Assembly (NCBI GenBank): GCA_947494145.1
Contig: CANLTZ010000008.1
Coordinates: 62,001-126,000 of the forward strand
Reading direction: 5' to 3'
Length of the DNA stretch: 64,000 bases
DNA from: an uncultured Jannaschia sp.
Lineage (GTDB): Bacteria; Pseudomonadota; Alphaproteobacteria; Rhodobacterales; Rhodobacteraceae
Shown here piece by piece: positions 32,533 to 40,647 of the stretch. A model generated the notes under the pieces. The model ran no database searches. It worked only from the letters and a program-made list of their open reading frames with translations, and was not told where the DNA came from. The stretch's first letter is position 1. The number at the start of each line of letters is the position of its first letter. The position numbers and the translations under genes are program-made.

Positions 32533-34365
32533 TCATTCTGCGGGGTTCGCCGCCAAGGTGCCAGCACGGGCGCGCACGCCGTCCCGGTAAAGCGCCTTGG
32601 CCAGCGCCACGCACATCAGCCCCATGACCATGGTGAAGGGCAGCGCGCCGATGATCATGGCGTTGCGCAAGGCCTCCATCGGATCGACGCCGCCGACCTT
32701 ACCGGCGATGAGAAGCGTGCCGATCACCGCGGTCAGAATGACGCCCCAGATGATCTTGTGCTTGTTGCCCACGTTCTGGTCGCCGCCGGACATGATGGTG
32801 TTCATCACCAAAATGCCCGAATCCGCCGATGTCACCAGGAACGTCATGATCAGCACGACGCACATGATGGTGATGGCTGACAAGAACCCGCCCGAGATCA
32901 TCTGACCCAGGGTAACGAACAACTTCGCCGTGTTGGACGCCCCGATGATGGCACCGTCCGCCCCGCCCGAGATCTCCAAGTCGATGGCCGTGCCGCCCAG
33001 GATGGTCATCCAGGCAAAGCAGACCAGCGACGGGGCGATCACGCAGCCGACGATGAATTCGCGCACCGTCCGCCCGCGCGAGATGCGCGCAAGGAACAGG
33101 CCCACGAAGGGCGAAAACGCGATCCACCAAGCCCAGTAGAACGTGGTCCAACCGGATTGCCAGCCAAACTGACGACCGGTTTCGCCCGCCGCATAGGCAG
33201 CTTGCAGAACCTCATCCGGCAAGGCCGCGGCGTCCCCTTCCAGGCCCGCCTTGAACGCATCGAATGACCCCCAGGCATTGGTGGCCCCGCCGCGCAGCGC
33301 GTCAGCAAAGGGCACCGCTTCCGGCGGCAACTCGGCCGCGAAGGCACTGGCTGAGAGAGGCGAATAGGCGCCGAAGCTAAGCGACAAGAAGCTGACGAGG
33401 TAGTCGACCAGCGCCGTTGCGTAGGTCGTCATCGCAAAGAAGAACGAGCCGAAGACCACGAAGGTGAACAGCAGGATCAGCGACAGCACCAGGTTCAGGT
33501 TCGACAGGTACTTCACCCCGCGCCCCACGCCCGACACCGCCGAGATGATCGACAAACCCATGACAAGCAGAAGGCCCGCGATCAGGCCCACGGTGCCCGG
33601 CGCCGGGGCCTCGCCCGTCAAGTTCATCATCCATTCCATGCCAGTCACCGCATAGACCCCGTCAATAAACTGGGAGATGCCGAAGCCTATGGTCACGGAC
33701 ACGCCAAGGATGGTTGCAACCACGCCAAGCACGTCGACCACATGGCCCAGGAAGCCGTTCATCAGCCGACCGAAAAGGGGCGTCAGCGCGGTTCGGATCG
33801 TCAGCGGCATGTCACGGGTATAGGCGTAATAGGCCAGTGACAGGCCGGTCACCACATAGATGGCCCAGGCGTGGAAGCCGTAATGGCTGAACGTGTAGCG
33901 ATAGGCCGAGGTCAGTGCCTCTTCCGAATTCGCCTCCACCGCGCCGGATAGGATGACCGGGTTCGATCCCCAAAGGCCAATGGGCTCGGCCGTGGCGAAG
34001 ACCATAAGGCCAACGCCCAGCCCGGCGCCGAACATCATCGAAAACCACGAAAAGTTCGAGAATTCCGTGCCTTCTCCGGGTCGCCCCATTACGCGTTTGC
34101 CGGTCTGAGGCAGGATCGCGACGATGAAGAGGAAGATGGCGAAGAGGCCCACGATCAGGATGTAGAAGGCGTTGAAATTCGCCAGGATCTGCGAGTTCCA
34201 GCTTCCCAGCACCTTGTTGGCATTGGCTGGCCAGACGAGGGCCCAGATCACCAGCCCCACCATGATCGCCTTGCTGATCAGCGCGATTTCCACGCTGTGA
34301 CCCTTATAAAAGCCCTGGACGGAGGTATTGATCTCCAAATCCGTAAATGGCTGTTTTATTGACAT
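32533..34365 (-). CDS. BCCT-family betaine/carnitine/choline-type transporter
   Basis: 610 residues from ATG 34365 with GGGAGAG upstream; the frame continues upstream but that part is unlikely protein. About twelve membrane helices. The family signature GWTTFYWAWWIAFSPFVG and the following ISRGRTVREFI are clear, as is the glycine-rich segment FGAGLGVGLMVFATAEP on helix three. Members import quaternary ammonium compounds such as glycine betaine, choline, carnitine or DMSP by sodium or proton symport. Short N- and C-termini argue against an osmosensor of the BetP type. It is the last gene of a run with DUF3726, a 560-residue protein and an M19 dipeptidase; 207 bases without a gene separate it from DUF3726. 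Confidence 0.92.
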   Translation of the reverse strand: MSIKQPFTDLEINTSVQGFYKGHSVEIALISKAIMVGLVIWALVWPANANKVLGSWNSQILANFNAFYILIVGLFAIFLFIVAILPQTGKRVMGRPGEGTEFSNFSWFSMMFGAGLGVGLMVFATAEPIGLWGSNPVILSGAVEANSEEALTSAYRYTFSHYGFHAWAIYVVTGLSLAYYAYTRDMPLTIRTALTPLFGRLMNGFLGHVVDVLGVVATILGVSVTIGFGISQFIDGVYAVTGMEWMMNLTGEAPAPGTVGLIAGLLLVMGLSIISAVSGVGRGVKYLSNLNLVLSLILLFTFVVFGSFFFAMTTYATALVDYLVSFLSLSFGAYSPLSASAFAAELPPEAVPFADALRGGATNAWGSFDAFKAGLEGDAAALPDEVLQAAYAAGETGRQFGWQSGWTTFYWAWWIAFSPFVGLFLARISRGRTVREFIVGCVIAPSLVCFAWMTILGGTAIDLEISGGADGAIIGASNTAKLFVTLGQMISGGFLSAITIMCVVLIMTFLVTSADSGILVMNTIMSGGDQNVGNKHKIIWGVILTAVIGTLLIAGKVGGVDPMEALRNAMIIGALPFTMVMGLMCVALAKALYRDGVRARAGTLAANPAE

Positions 34366-34572
34366 TTCTCTCTCCCTTTCAAGCGGGTTGGACCCGGTCG
34401 TCCGTTCCCTTGCAACGTGCTGTCTTCTGCAGATGTCGGTCCCTGCTTCGCCTGCTTTCGTGATGCCCCTTAAGTCGTGATGTGATCTCCACGTCTTGGG
34501 GCTATCACGCCGCTGGCATGCCCTGGGCGACACTCACCCGATGCCTGCCCCGCGGCCCCGATGTCCTGGCGG

Positions 34573-35205
34573 TCAATCATTGTCCGAAAGGCCCGCCCCT
34601 GCCCCTTTCAATCGCGACTCGTCGGTCGCCGGGGCAAAAGTCCGCCTAGCCAAGTGTTGGAGAAGCGCTAGCCCGTCTGGCGCAGGCTTCGCCCGGCTGC
34701 AGTACGGCCTTGGCTGGTCCAGATCACCGCCGGTCGTCACCGCCACATCAGCCACCGGGATGCTGGCCGCGCCCGCAATGCTGAGCGCCTCGCCATCGGT
34801 GGACGCAAAGGTGCCGTCCCAGGCGATTGTCACCCGCATGTCCAGATGCTTGGCCGACATGCAAGCGAAGGGCGCCAGCAAGATGGGATGCACCACCTGA
34901 TCAATGCGCAGCTCACCGTCGCGTAACGCCTCGGCCTCGTCGGACAAGGCCGCGCCCGTCGCAATCGGACAAAGCGTGGCGCCCTTGGGCGCCCAACGCG
35001 AGCCATTTTGAACGGGCCTCCAAGCGGTCAGATCTGCGCCGTCGGACTGCGCCAACAACCCTGCCAGTTCGGCACAGCCATCCACATCCCGCGCATAAAG
35101 CCAGCGGACCGCCTTCGCGGCTTCCTCCGCCAAACCCCAGGGGTAGCCCGCGCCGCGCGTGGCCTTCTTTGCTAGCGCTTCAACTTCATTGAACGACATC
35201 GTCAT
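34573..35205 (-). CDS. DUF3726-domain protein
   Basis: 210 residues. The opening SFNEVEALAKKATRGAGYPWGLAEEAAKAVRWLYARDVDGCAELA is the hallmark of DUF3726, a family of unknown function found mainly in marine alphaproteobacteria. The rest has the family-like VVHPILLAPFACMSAKHLDMRVTIAWDG. No membrane segment or signal peptide is seen, so it should be cytoplasmic. Its ATG overlaps the stop of the 560-residue gene (35202-35205). The tight coupling suggests that the two proteins act together. Confidence 0.8.
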   Translation of the reverse strand: MTMSFNEVEALAKKATRGAGYPWGLAEEAAKAVRWLYARDVDGCAELAGLLAQSDGADLTAWRPVQNGSRWAPKGATLCPIATGAALSDEAEALRDGELRIDQVVHPILLAPFACMSAKHLDMRVTIAWDGTFASTDGEALSIAGAASIPVADVAVTTGGDLDQPRPYCSRAKPAPDGLALLQHLARRTFAPATDESRLKGAGAGLSDND

Positions 35206-36884
35206 GGCCCCCCCGCGCCGTAGACCCAGAAATCGGCCGTCTCGCGCGACAAGTCTTCGGGGTAAGGAGCGTTGGCATACATGCAGATCCGCACCCAGCG
35301 GTCAGAACGAGGATCGAATTGCGTGGCGCCGAAGAACGACAGCTTGGCGCGCAGCATGTCGATGGGCAGTACGTGCGCGCTGATCGTGTTGTCACGGATT
35401 TCGCCGTAAGGTGCGCGGTGGCTCATCTGAGCGCGGCGAACGCTGTGTCGATGTTCGGGATGTTGCAGAAGGAAGGCCGCGATCGGGACGTCATCGTCCC
35501 ATTCCACCAAGGCAGCATGGGCAGCAGCCGCGTCCCGTGCCGGAGCCAGGGGTTGCTCATAGGGCGCAATGGGCTCCTCAAAGCGTTCGCCCAGGCGGGG
35601 CTCCAGCTTTTCTTCGGATACGTACCAGGCACGTGCGCAATTGGTCTGCGCAGACCAATCCACATCCATGGCCCAACCAAAACTGATGCAAAGCAGGTCC
35701 CGCACCTTCCCGGCAGTCATCGTGCCATCAATGCGAAAGGCATCTGGGTCGTCATCGGCCATGCCTTCGGCCAAATCGTCTACCAACGCGCCGTAGGGTT
35801 CCAGCATCAGCGACGCCAGAAATTCCTGGCCCTCCTCACTCAAGGCGTCTTCAGCCCAGATGACCATACGGTCCCAAGGAAAATCAGCGTCGAAATCGAA
35901 GCCATCTAAAAGAACCAATAGCGCGTCGATATCCGCCCGGAGCGCGTGCAGCTTGTCCACCTGCACCGGATGTTCCGAGCGCCAGCACCCAACGGAAACC
36001 ACCGCCCGCCGCAAGAGACGACGAAACAGCGCCACATCGTTGGCGGTCGCCGCCGCCACGCCCCGCACCCGCGCAATCGCCTCTTCGCGCATCATCATCC
36101 AGTTATTGAACAGGACGGGGTGGTTGATGATGTAGGGCGCCATGCCCAGCCCAGTGGAATTGCCGATCCCCAGACGCCGGGCCAGCGCGGGGTCCAGTCG
36201 CACGGCGCGGTCGCCGCCTTGAGCCGCAGCCATATGCTCCACCAAGTCGCGCACGAACACGCGCGTCAGGTAGACTGATAGCATCTCCGCTTGGAACGGT
36301 TCGTGCATCTCGGGGCGCGCGGCGATCACCTCCCGGTCGGCGGCCCCGAACTTGCCGGAACCATAGACCGCCGTGGTGCGCATCAGATAGCCGACCTCGT
36401 CCAACGCCGCCACATCCGGCTGCCGACCCTCGGCAAGCGCGCCCACCACATGGGTCCAAAGCCGGACGGACCGATTGGCCCGCGACAAAGACAATTCCCG
36501 TTCACTGACGCGGCCCGCTTCCTGCACGGGCACATTGCGCGCCAGACGTTCGATATCCGCTGGCTCGGGCACCCCGTCGAACAGCGCGAAGGTGGCATCC
36601 CAGGCCTCTGCGATCACCCGGTCCGACCGTTGATCATCCGGCAGATCATGGGCGAAAGCCACCAGGGAATAGGCCCGCTCCGGCCCCCGCATTGTGTAGA
36701 CCGCCCGCCCCACGCCCCGCGCGTCGATGTCAAAGACAGGTCGCGAGAAAGCCCAGCCCTCGCGCGCCATGCGCCGCGTCAGGATGCGCATGAAGCTCAA
36801 CCGGCATTGATGGAGAGAGCCAAGCCGCCGCAGGCGCATGACAACACCCGGATCCCGACGTGCGATATGGGGCGTTGTTGCCAC
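35202..36884 (-). CDS. 560-residue conserved-looking protein with no recognised domain
   Basis: 560 residues from GTG 36884. This start shares a base with the M19 stop (TAGTG) and has AGGGGA six bases upstream, so it is well supported. The protein looks soluble: no signal peptide and no membrane helices. Segments that could serve as handles are MREGWAFSRPVFDIDARGVG-like text near residue 40 (here MAREGWAFSRPVFDI), TMRGPERAYSLVAFAHDLPD, YLMRTTAVYGSGKFGAADR, GNSTGLGMAPYIINHPVLFNNWMM and DRWVRICMYANAPYPEDLSRE. I do not recognise a family. Translational coupling to an M19 dipeptidase before it and DUF3726 after it is the only clue to its job. Confidence 0.75.
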   Translation of the reverse strand: MATTPHIARRDPGVVMRLRRLGSLHQCRLSFMRILTRRMAREGWAFSRPVFDIDARGVGRAVYTMRGPERAYSLVAFAHDLPDDQRSDRVIAEAWDATFALFDGVPEPADIERLARNVPVQEAGRVSERELSLSRANRSVRLWTHVVGALAEGRQPDVAALDEVGYLMRTTAVYGSGKFGAADREVIAARPEMHEPFQAEMLSVYLTRVFVRDLVEHMAAAQGGDRAVRLDPALARRLGIGNSTGLGMAPYIINHPVLFNNWMMMREEAIARVRGVAAATANDVALFRRLLRRAVVSVGCWRSEHPVQVDKLHALRADIDALLVLLDGFDFDADFPWDRMVIWAEDALSEEGQEFLASLMLEPYGALVDDLAEGMADDDPDAFRIDGTMTAGKVRDLLCISFGWAMDVDWSAQTNCARAWYVSEEKLEPRLGERFEEPIAPYEQPLAPARDAAAAHAALVEWDDDVPIAAFLLQHPEHRHSVRRAQMSHRAPYGEIRDNTISAHVLPIDMLRAKLSFFGATQFDPRSDRWVRICMYANAPYPEDLSRETADFWVYGAGGP

Positions 36885-37861
36885 TATGTTCCCCTGGGCG
36901 CGAAATTCTCCGCGAAGAAACGATACCAATTACCGCCCATGATGCCCGCAATTTCGTCGTCGTCCATGCCCGTCGCGCGCAAACCCGCTTCGATATTGCT
37001 GAAGTCTCGGTTGTCCTGGAACCAGTCGGGCATGGCCGGAAAGCCCGCATCCGTGGCCGTGCCTTCGCCGTAGTCGATGTCTTTCGTCCAGCGGCCCACG
37101 CGCATCCATTCGACCACGCTGTCGGGCTGGTCCTGGCACAGATCGGACCCGATCCCGAGATGGTCGACCCCGAACTTCTCCGCACTCCGCGCGATCATCT
37201 CACAGAAGCTGTCCAGGCTGCAGGCCGATTTGTCCTTCAAGTGATGGGGATAAAGCGAAAAGCCCAGCATCCCGCCGGCCTCCGTCACCGCGCGGATCAC
37301 ATCGTCGCGCTTGTTGCGCCGGGCGGGCGCCCAAGCATGCGGGTTGGCATGGGTGATTGCGATGGGCCGGTCCGAGATCTCGGCCGCCTCAAAGGTCGAG
37401 CGGTCGGCGGAATGGCTCATATCGACAACCAGACCAACGCGATTCATCTCTCGGATGACTTGGCGCCCCATGCGCGTGATCCCCGGATCCTCGGCCTCAT
37501 AGCAGCCCGTGGCGAGCAGGGATTGGTTGTTGTAGCTCAACTGCATGAACCGCGCGCCCAAAGTGTGGACGATTTCGACCAGGCCGATATCGTCTTCAAT
37601 GGGGCTTGGGTTCTGGAAGCCGAAGAAGATCGCCGTTCGGCCCGTCTCGCGCGCAACATCCACATCGCTGGCCCATCGACCCTTCATGATCAGGTCGGGG
37701 AAGCGCTCGAACCAGCGGTTCCAGCGCTCGAAGTTCAGCACCGTTTCGCGGAATGTCTCATGGTAGGCGATGGTCACATGCACGGCATCCATACCGCCGT
37801 CGCGCATCTGGCGAAAGATGCGCTCCGACCAGTTGGCATATTGCAGACCGTCGATACGCAT
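36884..37861 (-). CDS. membrane-dipeptidase (peptidase M19) family protein
   Basis: 325 residues from ATG 37861, with AAGGGG ten bases upstream. The metal-dependent M19 fold is seen in GGMDAVHVTIAYHETFRETV near the N-terminus, MQLSYNNQSLLATGCYE, VGLVVDMSHSADRSTFEAAEISDRPIAITHANPHAWAPARRNK (two histidines of the zinc site) and DHLGIGSDLCQD (aspartate ligand), ending IMGGNWYRFFAENF. No signal peptide is present, so it is probably cytoplasmic. Similar M19 proteins occur in betaine/dimethylglycine catabolic clusters of pseudomonads, from memory. With the BCCT transporter in the same run, a substrate derived from a methylated amine is an inference. Confidence 0.85.
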   Translation of the reverse strand: MRIDGLQYANWSERIFRQMRDGGMDAVHVTIAYHETFRETVLNFERWNRWFERFPDLIMKGRWASDVDVARETGRTAIFFGFQNPSPIEDDIGLVEIVHTLGARFMQLSYNNQSLLATGCYEAEDPGITRMGRQVIREMNRVGLVVDMSHSADRSTFEAAEISDRPIAITHANPHAWAPARRNKRDDVIRAVTEAGGMLGFSLYPHHLKDKSACSLDSFCEMIARSAEKFGVDHLGIGSDLCQDQPDSVVEWMRVGRWTKDIDYGEGTATDAGFPAMPDWFQDNRDFSNIEAGLRATGMDDDEIAGIMGGNWYRFFAENFAPRGT

Positions 37862-38028: not shown

Positions 38029-39369
38029 TTACCGACGCGTCAAACGCAGTTTGATCCCATCGCGCGACCGGACCGTCAGGTGGGCCACGGGAACGGGCGG
38101 CGCGCCAACCGCCGCCACCTCGAACGCTCCGATGAGGCGCGATAGCAGCAGCACACCCTCGGCCATGGCGAAACCAGCACCCGTGCAGACGCGCGGGCCC
38201 GCGCTGAAAGGCATATAGGCGGCGCGTTCGCTCTCCTTGGTTTCGGGGCGGCGCCAGCGATCAGGGTCGAAGGCATCGGGGTCGGACCAGAGCCGTTCAT
38301 GCCGGTGCAGGTGCCAGGGCGATAGCACGCATTGCGCACCCAAGGGCGCGGGGCGGCCACGAAACGTCTCGGCCCGGGTGGTTTCGCGCACCATCATCGG
38401 CACCGGCGGGTAAAGCCGCAGGGTCTCGCGGAAGACATCGCGGGTGAAGGGGAGCTTGGACAGATCGCCGAGATCGAACGCATCCCAATCGGCGGGTGCC
38501 TCGGCGGCCACGCGGGCCTGGGCCTCGGGAAAGGTGGCCAGCAAATAAAGCGCCCAAGACAGGGCCGAGGCGCTTGTTTCGTGGCCCGCCAGGAAGAAGA
38601 TCGCGACTTGGTCCACCATCTCATCTGGTGAAAAGCGGTGGCCGGTTTCGGGATCGGGATAAGTCATGATCTTGGTGGCCAGGTCGTCGGGCGCAGTGCC
38701 CGCCGCGATTTCGCCCGCGCGCCGGTCCACCAGGGCGGCGATAGCGGTGCGAATGGCACGTGCGGCGCGGGTTGTGGCACGTCGATGCGGGCGCGGCACC
38801 CAGCGTGGCAGCGGGATCAGAGCAGCCGCATTCAGCAGGGGCTGGGTGCGCTGGTAATCCCTGAATTCGTTGAAGACCCGGGCAGCCAGCGCGTCTTCAA
38901 TGGGCACGGAAAAGAGCGTGCGGAAGATGACGTCGGCGGCGGCATGGGAACAGAAAACCTCGATTTCCTGCGGGCCGGGCTTGGCACGGGCCACCATGGC
39001 AGCGGCCGCATCCTTCATGGCCGGGAAGGCGTCGCGCAGGCGGCCCTTGCCAAAGGCCGGATCGATGATGCGGCGCTGGCGCTTCCATTCGTCCCCATTG
39101 GTGACGAACACCGACCGGCCCAGCAGCGGCGCCAGCCCTTCGCGGACGCGGTCGGATTTGGGGAAGTCATCCGGTCGCTCTTTCAGCACCAGATCCAGCA
39201 ACGCCGGGTCGTTCATCAGATAGCTGCGAAAGAAGGGCGTGCGGAATTCGGCCATCCAGGCGCGGTACAACCGCGCGGGCTGCGCGCTCAGGATATCGCG
39301 GCGAAAGCGGCGACCATATTCCAGCAGCCCCACCCGGTCGGGGCGCGACGCGGGCTTGGGTGGGATCAT
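38029..39369 (-). CDS. cytochrome P450
   Basis: 446 residues. All P450 marks are present: I-helix FFLAGHETSASALSWALYL with the acid-alcohol pair, ExxR as FRETLRLYPPVPMMVRETTR, and the heme loop FSAGPRVCTGAGFAMAEGVL with cysteine 395 as iron ligand. No membrane anchor, so it is a soluble bacterial class enzyme needing redox partners; no ferredoxin gene lies beside it. Its start overlaps the stop of the membrane hydrolase gene (ATGA at 39366-39369). The substrate is unknown; the ETxR..PPVP region resembles fatty acid or terpenoid hydroxylating families. Confidence 0.94.
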   Translation of the reverse strand: MIPPKPASRPDRVGLLEYGRRFRRDILSAQPARLYRAWMAEFRTPFFRSYLMNDPALLDLVLKERPDDFPKSDRVREGLAPLLGRSVFVTNGDEWKRQRRIIDPAFGKGRLRDAFPAMKDAAAAMVARAKPGPQEIEVFCSHAAADVIFRTLFSVPIEDALAARVFNEFRDYQRTQPLLNAAALIPLPRWVPRPHRRATTRAARAIRTAIAALVDRRAGEIAAGTAPDDLATKIMTYPDPETGHRFSPDEMVDQVAIFFLAGHETSASALSWALYLLATFPEAQARVAAEAPADWDAFDLGDLSKLPFTRDVFRETLRLYPPVPMMVRETTRAETFRGRPAPLGAQCVLSPWHLHRHERLWSDPDAFDPDRWRRPETKESERAAYMPFSAGPRVCTGAGFAMAEGVLLLSRLIGAFEVAAVGAPPVPVAHLTVRSRDGIKLRLTRR

Positions 39370-40589
39370 GCGGCCATGGCCGTGAAGCGATTGACCGGCG
39401 CGGTCAGGCGCGACGGGCTGGGGGATCGGCCCTCAAACCGATCGGCCAGTGTGATGGGCCCGGCGGTGATGCGGAAATAGTCATAGGCGCCAGGGCGATC
39501 GAAGGCGCAGAGATACTGAAAATGCAGGCGGAAATAGCGGCGTTTCAGTTCCTGCCACCGTTCGGGGCTAAGCGTCTTGGTGAAGGCTGCCGACAGGACA
39601 AGGGGCCAGACCTGGTTTTCAGGGGCCACGCCGGACACGGCCACCGGGTCGCACAGCGCGAAGGCGCAGCCATCACCGGGGGCCGTGATATCGACCCAAG
39701 GGATGAGTTCTTGGGCCGACATCAAATGAAGATCGGCACGCAGTCTATTGGCTTCCGGTAGAAAGCTGACCATCGGGACGACTTGACCCAGGCTCAGGAA
39801 GGCCAGGCGACCTTCGGGCACGCGCCCCGCGCGGATCAGGTCCGCCAAGACCGAAACGGCGAGATGGGCGCCCGAAGAATGCCCCACGACCAGCACCTCA
39901 TCAGAGCCGGAGGCCAGCGCCTCGGTGATCTTGTCGCCGAATTGCGCCATGCGCACTTCCAACTCTGGCGGGTTCGCCCCTTTCCAACGGGCGGAAAAGG
40001 CGTAGTCATGCATCAGGTAATAGGCGAATATCTTGGCGTCTTTTGCTTTGAACCAGCGCAGTGCGCCCCAAGCAACCGCCCCGCCCGCGATCACGCCCAG
40101 GATTTTGGCGGTCACGTCGAACGAAATGCCCGAAGGCAAAAGCCCCACGCACCAGGCCACCGTCGCGCCCGCGCCCCAGCCCAGCAGGGCCGCAGCCACG
40201 GCCTGCAAGATCAGGAAGACCACAGGGTAGAGCGCCGCGATGACGGGCCCCTGGCGCAAGCGCATCAGCCGGAACAGCGCGCCCGAGCCGATATAGGTCC
40301 AGGCCGTGCGCGCCATCTGCGCGTAGGTGGCGGGGATCGAGGCATCCATACTGCTCGACACGATATCGGACCAGACCAGCACCTCCACGTCCGAGGTGAC
40401 CTCCGCGCCGTCCATCTTGGCGTCCACGACCCAGGAATAGGGCGTATCGCCCTTGCGCAAGGCCAAGTCATAACCCGAAATGGCCGCCTGCGCCGCGCCC
40501 TCCTTGCGGTAGAGTTCGCGGTAGCGGCGGGGATGGAACGGGTCATAGCCCGGGATGTACAATACCTTACGGCGGCTCACTTGGGACAT
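39366..40589 (-). CDS. membrane-inserted alpha/beta hydrolase coupled to the P450
   Basis: 407 residues from ATG 40589, which has AGAGGTG six bases upstream; a GTG three codons earlier is less likely. VLYIPGYDPFHPRRYRELYRKEG opens the protein, two to three hydrophobic segments follow near residues 110-175 (VIAALYPVVFLILQAVAAALLGWGAGATVAWCVGLL in part), and the nucleophile elbow VLVVGHSSGAHLAVSVLADL contains the serine. The hydrophobic insertion in the middle of the hydrolase is unusual. The four-base overlap with the P450 gene suggests a two-step pathway on one hydrophobic substrate. No characterised family is recognised. Confidence 0.75.
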   Translation of the reverse strand: MSQVSRRKVLYIPGYDPFHPRRYRELYRKEGAAQAAISGYDLALRKGDTPYSWVVDAKMDGAEVTSDVEVLVWSDIVSSSMDASIPATYAQMARTAWTYIGSGALFRLMRLRQGPVIAALYPVVFLILQAVAAALLGWGAGATVAWCVGLLPSGISFDVTAKILGVIAGGAVAWGALRWFKAKDAKIFAYYLMHDYAFSARWKGANPPELEVRMAQFGDKITEALASGSDEVLVVGHSSGAHLAVSVLADLIRAGRVPEGRLAFLSLGQVVPMVSFLPEANRLRADLHLMSAQELIPWVDITAPGDGCAFALCDPVAVSGVAPENQVWPLVLSAAFTKTLSPERWQELKRRYFRLHFQYLCAFDRPGAYDYFRITAGPITLADRFEGRSPSPSRLTAPVNRFTAMAA

Positions 40590-40647
40590 CACTTGCACCT
40601 CTGGGCGCGACCATGCCAGACCGCGAGGGCAAAATTAAGGACGTAGA

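Follow-up and report, generated by a model that had tools for sequence, protein, structure and literature searches.

A cluster of four genes was analyzed in a 64,000-nucleotide stretch of DNA from an uncultured Jannaschia sp. (GenBank assembly GCA_947494145.1, contig CANLTZ010000008.1, positions 62,001 to 126,000 of the forward strand); this whole stretch is referred to as the window. The genes code for an M19-like protein, a protein of 560 amino acids (aa), a DUF3726 protein and a BCCT-family transporter (Table 1). All four are on one strand and the first three are chained by overlapping stop and start codons, as described in an original prediction that had also read the set as an undescribed functional unit. 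The analysis indicates that the four genes most probably represent a reduced version of a catabolic operon for homarine or a closely related N-methyl compound.

Table 1. Genes of the cluster, with coordinates in the window
Feature	Position	Strand	Start and end	Remarks
M19-like protein	36884..37861	-	ATG at 37861; TAG stop at 36886-36884	325 aa; 2i5g type; Pfam PF01244, 241.6 bits
560-aa protein, family unknown	35202..36884	-	GTG at 36884-36882, overlapping the M19 stop by one common base (TAGTG); TGA stop at 35204-35202	
DUF3726 protein	34573..35205	-	ATG at 35205-35203, overlapping the 560-aa stop (ATGA); end at 34573	210 aa; shortened Ldh_2 fold lacking SHG; Pfam, 80.4 bits
BCCT-family transporter	32533..34365	-	ATG at 34365, after a 207-base-pair gap; end at 32533; frame open to 34533	610 aa; Pfam PF02028, 475.5 bits

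Of 149 genomes of the same family, 70 carry the 560-aa gene, the genome of the window among them. It also occurs in 29 of 398 genomes of a phylum sample (17 of the same family, three of the same class and nine of other classes) and in 168 of 72,556 plasmid records, including those of Vibrio, Pseudomonas and Sinorhizobium. Neighbouring genes were counted by profile searches with score thresholds, within 6 kilobases (kb) of the 560-aa gene, at 80 loci on genome contigs, these being the best 80 of 208 confirmed relatives. A DUF3726 gene followed at most 150 base pairs (bp) downstream at 79 of the 80 loci, and the locus of the sole exception (L099) stops about 160 bp past the matched stretch. An M19 gene was present on the same strand at 75 loci and was not found within 6 kb at L075, L080, L086, L092 and L106. 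These two counts show an association that is more than chance. At 20 more distant loci, chosen by hand from the family and phylum samples for their divergence and searched with lower score thresholds, DUF3726 was present at all 20 and M19 at 18 (17 on the same strand). The linkage of the genes holds in both Alpha- and Gammaproteobacteria, and the proposal that they form a true functional unit is upheld.

The recurring operon is fuller than had been noticed, with the usual order LysR regulator, aldehyde dehydrogenase, M19, 560-aa, DUF3726 and Ldh_2 reductase. Aldehyde dehydrogenase was found at 55 of the 80 loci (five of the 20 distant ones), LysR at 51 (six) and Ldh_2 at 50 (two), and all three had been missed by the original prediction. 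The BCCT gene, which had been counted as a fixed part of the unit, is present at 21 of the 80 loci and five of the 20, either at the end of the operon or between the M19 and 560-aa genes; genes of ABC-type importers occur at some other loci (L034, L059 and L174), and a fixed membership of the BCCT carrier is thus not upheld. Outside the operon itself, every recurring gene cluster is limited to 18 or fewer of the 80 loci, so that no demethylase is a constant neighbour.

A few loci depart from the usual form. At L143 (7153-7890) the DUF3726 gene shows up as two frames, with the cluster otherwise kept. At L086 and L092 (Granulosicoccus) the 560-aa/DUF3726 pair stands without M19 and is followed by an aldo/keto reductase gene; upstream of it at L086 lie sugar-acid genes (enolase family, 2-keto-3-deoxy-galactonokinase and 2-keto-3-deoxy-6-phosphogluconate (KDPG) aldolase). 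At L075 and L080 the 560-aa gene comes straight after a gene for a regulator of the GntR type (in L075, a Pfam match to GntR/UTRA). On plasmid pPGA1_262 of P. inhibens (L170, 10546-22325) the operon adjoins genes for dimethylsulfoniopropionate demethylase, methylthioacryloyl-CoA hydratase (dmdD), an AMP-binding protein and an acyl-CoA dehydrogenase. The record of Phaeobacter inhibens DSM 17395 with PGA1_RS19010 carries the 560-aa gene at two places; in Ruegeria sp. TM1040 the locus tags of the 560-aa/DUF3726 pair are TM1040_RS02335 and RS02340.

The score of the M19-like protein against its Pfam profile lies well above the cut-off of 26 bits, as would suit a dipeptidase that serves peptide scavenging with the other proteins assisting. 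Its best match in the PDB is 2i5g ('amidohydrolase'; 187.8 bits, with the next at 84.8), and proteins named dipeptidase match it at 85 bits or less. The metal-ligand columns, at positions that we take from renal dipeptidase, were examined in 66 aligned M19-like sequences of the operon, 64 of which have letters at the HxD and Glu columns; HxD was placed by motif, in a region outside the alignment with true dipeptidases. Where DGHxD is expected, a DGLQYANW-like motif occurs (Leu in 64 of 64; Tyr in 63 of 64, Phe once), and the bridging Glu is replaced by Gln in all 64, this Gln being aligned with the Glu of 3id7. The second metal site is kept, its two His and one Asp being invariant (66 of 66). 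Since the HxD and Glu ligands are lost, the protein is probably no dipeptidase, and by its sequence it is likely to be a one-metal enzyme with another reaction; the loss of two canonical metal-ligand sites speaks against the working dipeptidase or amidase expected earlier. The recurring partners, redox enzymes and a BCCT carrier, also fit peptide scavenging poorly, and we regard it as very improbable. The 2i5g protein, the best solved relative, shares with the window protein an IDGL start and a GFQN motif, and neither has the HxD and Glu of renal dipeptidase. It is presumably PA5396 of P. aeruginosa, from the glycine betaine gene region, and we know of no catalytic data for it.

The 560-aa protein gave no match in Pfam or NCBIfam at E≤0.1, which agrees with its description as a protein outside known families, and no clearly matching solved fold was found for it. 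At the same threshold NCBIfam also gave no match for the M19-like or DUF3726 proteins. In Mesorhizobium sp. 131-2-1 a single protein fuses the 560-aa protein with DUF3726 (L174, 11944-14388, NZ_AP023248.1). Close to this fusion lie a gene of the trimethylamine methyltransferase family and an ABC transporter for glycine betaine/proline.

DUF3726 had been presented as a second novel protein and proved instead to have a shortened Ldh_2 fold; TM-scores by query length were only 0.39-0.52 in the 27 Ldh_2 rows of the structure comparison. The window protein has no Ldh_2 match in Pfam at E≤0.1, and one of seven other members tested exceeds the Ldh_2 cut-off. The SHG motif, which we take to be the Ldh_2 catalytic motif, is present in 44 of 45 operon Ldh_2 proteins, and the letters SHG occur in three of 79 DUF3726 proteins, at a variable spot. 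Proteins of the Ldh_2 family (type 2 malate/lactate dehydrogenase, YiaK, DpkA) have about 333 aa, whereas the DUF3726 protein of the window is about 120 aa shorter, lacks SHG and has an extra C-terminal tail with a conserved Gly-Ala-Gly. DUF3726 was named nowhere in the literature searched. Tentatively, and with some doubt, the 560-aa and DUF3726 proteins may together be one enzyme of a new class, opening the N-methylpyridinium ring of homarine without a recognisable oxygenase; the large subunit would then have a new fold, its partner would be a shortened Ldh_2 protein without a catalytic motif of its own, and the M19-like protein would act beside them as a one-metal non-peptidase.

The BCCT protein, probably the importer of the substrate, scored 386.7 bits against the glycine-betaine equivalog model, below the cut-off of 650. 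The operon Ldh_2 protein (L033) has its best PDB match in DpkA (1wtj; 192.9 bits, with the next at 140.6), a delta1-piperideine-2-carboxylate reductase that reduces cyclic 2-imino acids and also makes N-methyl amino acids. For the operon aldehyde dehydrogenase (L071 copy) the nearest models are those for betaine aldehyde, but its score stays under their cut-offs (458.7 versus 668.6 bits).

In six records a four-gene operon of the N-methylglutamate dehydrogenase (Mgd) type adjoins the cluster: plasmids of Ruegeria TM1040 and Aliiroseovarius crassostreae and genomes G100, G117, G075 and G086 (L171, L172 and L177-L180). Three arrangements were seen, with mgd, a regulator and LysR upstream (L171, L172, L179 and L180), with mgd directly before LysR (L178), or with mgd in line after BCCT (L177). 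The adjoining genes are read as Mgd because their first subunits are 77.6-79.3% identical to the MgdA of the window's genome, which stands beside mgsABC-like genes (named by eye) and a gmaS-type gene whose score exceeds the TIGR03105 cut-off. A second MgdA-like group (61-70% identity), present in most genomes, is probably true sarcosine oxidase. In the window's genome the mgd-mgsABC-gmaS-like cluster, of the N-methylglutamate pathway, lies on another contig (G000:C3:36142-46633, L169); mgsABC-gmaS-like genes are also found upstream of the operon at L057. Of the 30 genomes that carry both genes, four have MgdA no more than 12 kb from the 560-aa gene, where about 0.19 would be expected by chance (computed for 31). 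The gmaS-mgs-mgd pathway, and an AraC-type regulator, TmaR, adjoining mgd in R. pomeroyi, are described in PMC13390433; the regulator in the first of the three arrangements is a candidate counterpart of TmaR.

The best reading of these data is that a methylated, betaine-like compound is taken up and broken down, as first suggested. More specifically, we consider it reasonably probable that the conserved operon imports a small N-methylated compound and converts it to N-methylglutamate, homarine (N-methylpicolinate) being the likeliest substrate. We infer the following steps from the genes present and how well they are conserved, from how DUF3726 is fused and folded, and from the mgd-type linkage seen in some genomes. 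Homarine would be imported by the BCCT carrier, and the 560-aa/DUF3726 pair, as one enzyme, would attack and open the N-methylpyridinium ring, either by hydration at C6 and opening of the N-C6 bond to a methylamino-muconate-type semialdehyde or by C5-C6 cleavage. The aldehyde dehydrogenase would oxidise the released aldehyde to the acid, and the M19-like protein, as an amidohydrolase-type barrel that has a single metal site, may take off one carbon by deformylation or decarboxylation. The Ldh_2 enzyme, whose nearest match is delta1-piperideine-2-carboxylate reductase, would reduce a C=N bond, and Mgd would demethylate N-methylglutamate to glutamate.

PMC13390433 reports that Mgd acts in homarine catabolism and cites a pathway for it, published in 2026, that is called conserved in environmental bacteria. 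Given this publication, and the mgd-type genes to which some genomes link the operon, the label 'undescribed' becomes doubtful. R. pomeroyi quickly takes up homarine, one of a diatom's osmolytes, according to PMC12817926, and as of 2022 no homarine transporter was reported as confirmed in this organism (PMC9723723).

Several points weigh against an assignment to homarine. Mgd genes adjoin none of the 80 genome-contig loci (flanks up to 10 kb), the records of both plasmids (TM1040 and A. crassostreae) annotate the adjoining mgd-type genes as sarcosine oxidase subunits, and the reading of these genes as Mgd rests on about 78% identity to a copy itself named by eye. The window copy is without the aldehyde dehydrogenase and Ldh_2 genes of the fuller operon, and no close relative of either was found in the window's genome (best identities, 36% and 43%); this absence is probably real, because the completeness of the genome is put at 98% and the cluster is not cut by a contig end. 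Either distant paralogues must do both steps or the pathway differs. Co-occurrence, which itself speaks for a link to Mgd, was tested in the 149 family genomes with phylogeny and habitat ignored and with four families tried, and the line for MgdA-type, 74% identity or more, was drawn at a score gap after the scores had been seen; on these terms the 560-aa gene was present in 30 of 46 MgdA-type genomes and 40 of 103 others (p=0.004), or, for its closer relatives only, in 21 of 46 and 25 of 103 (p=0.012). For GmaS the corresponding counts were 29 of 45 and 41 of 104 (p=0.007). Relatives also occur in rhizobia, where homarine is no obvious substrate.

The rhizobial relatives and the sarcosine oxidase annotations would suit another N-methyl substrate handled by the same logic, such as trigonelline, N-methylproline/proline betaine, N-methylpipecolate or another N-methylated 2-carboxylate, taken up through BCCT or ABC carriers on a route ending in Mgd or sarcosine oxidase. 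BCCT genes in L171 and L172, the glycine betaine/proline ABC transporter near L174, the DpkA-like reductase, and a ring-hydroxylating dioxygenase with flavin adenine dinucleotide (FAD) oxidoreductases next door in Pseudomonas MPC6 point the same way. On the other side, it is homarine for which Mgd involvement has been reported, the conservation ascribed to its pathway fits the distribution found here, and no demethylase accompanies the operon constantly. A substrate of this other kind therefore appears rather unlikely.

Other neighbours at some loci are a further point against homarine and might place the operon in a hydroxyectoine, histidine or other ring-compound pathway. Genes of the hut type (named by eye) stand next to it at L038, L075 and L080, in two genera; genes for PALP, M24 and EutA-like proteins are in line in L050 (13308-16247), with clustered relatives in L048 and, in part, L108. 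Each set is confined to three loci of 80, however, and the scores are low for the EutA-like protein (170 of 318 bits) and for DoeA (69 of 575 bits); the PALP enzyme of L050 reached 255 of 276 bits with the diaminopropionate ammonia-lyase model. In the control tests the 560-aa gene did not co-occur with EutD at E≤1e-150 (46 of 92 versus 24 of 57, p=0.40) or with HutH at E≤1e-120 (36 of 82 versus 34 of 67, p=0.42), and at these thresholds the window's genome has no match to either. Such a pathway is accordingly improbable.

Upstream of the cluster, 167 bp separate the end of a P450 gene (38029-39369) from the start of M19, and a lipoyl-synthase-like gene is the downstream neighbour of the cluster. 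The codons of the P450 gene and of an alpha/beta-hydrolase-like gene (39366-40598) overlap, both being on the same strand upstream of M19 (window 38029-40598). None of these flanking genes has a BLAST relative (E≤1e-10) among the called genes of the 80 loci, and the borders of the cluster are therefore clear.

The operon as such has probably been described already. What is worth following is how the 560-aa/DUF3726 pair folds and what it catalyses, together with the one-metal M19-like protein. Ring opening would need chemistry for which no matching enzyme family was found here. For DUF3726, 'shortened Ldh_2 protein' can serve as a new description. Should the operon prove to be the homarine route, three poorly described families (the 560-aa protein, DUF3726 and 2i5g-type M19) would acquire a function and could be followed in marine data.

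The operon of the window type appears to resemble the homarine pathway with Mgd (Ferrer-Gonzalez et al. 2026, Nat Microbiol, as cited in PMC13390433) in its linkage to mgd-type genes in some genomes and in its occurrence in Alpha- and Gammaproteobacteria. For homarine breakdown a gene set homABCDER and an N-methylglutamate intermediate are reported. The five enzyme genes and LysR of the fuller operon would fit the letters A-E and R, and the window copy differs in having neither aldehyde dehydrogenase nor Ldh_2. The trigonelline (Tgn) pathway degrades an N-methylpyridinium carboxylate by means of a hydrolase and an aldehyde dehydrogenase. Its ring opener is an oxygenase pair, with none like it among the recurring genes here, whereas the type of substrate, as proposed for this operon, and the use of an aldehyde dehydrogenase and a hydrolase are the same in both.

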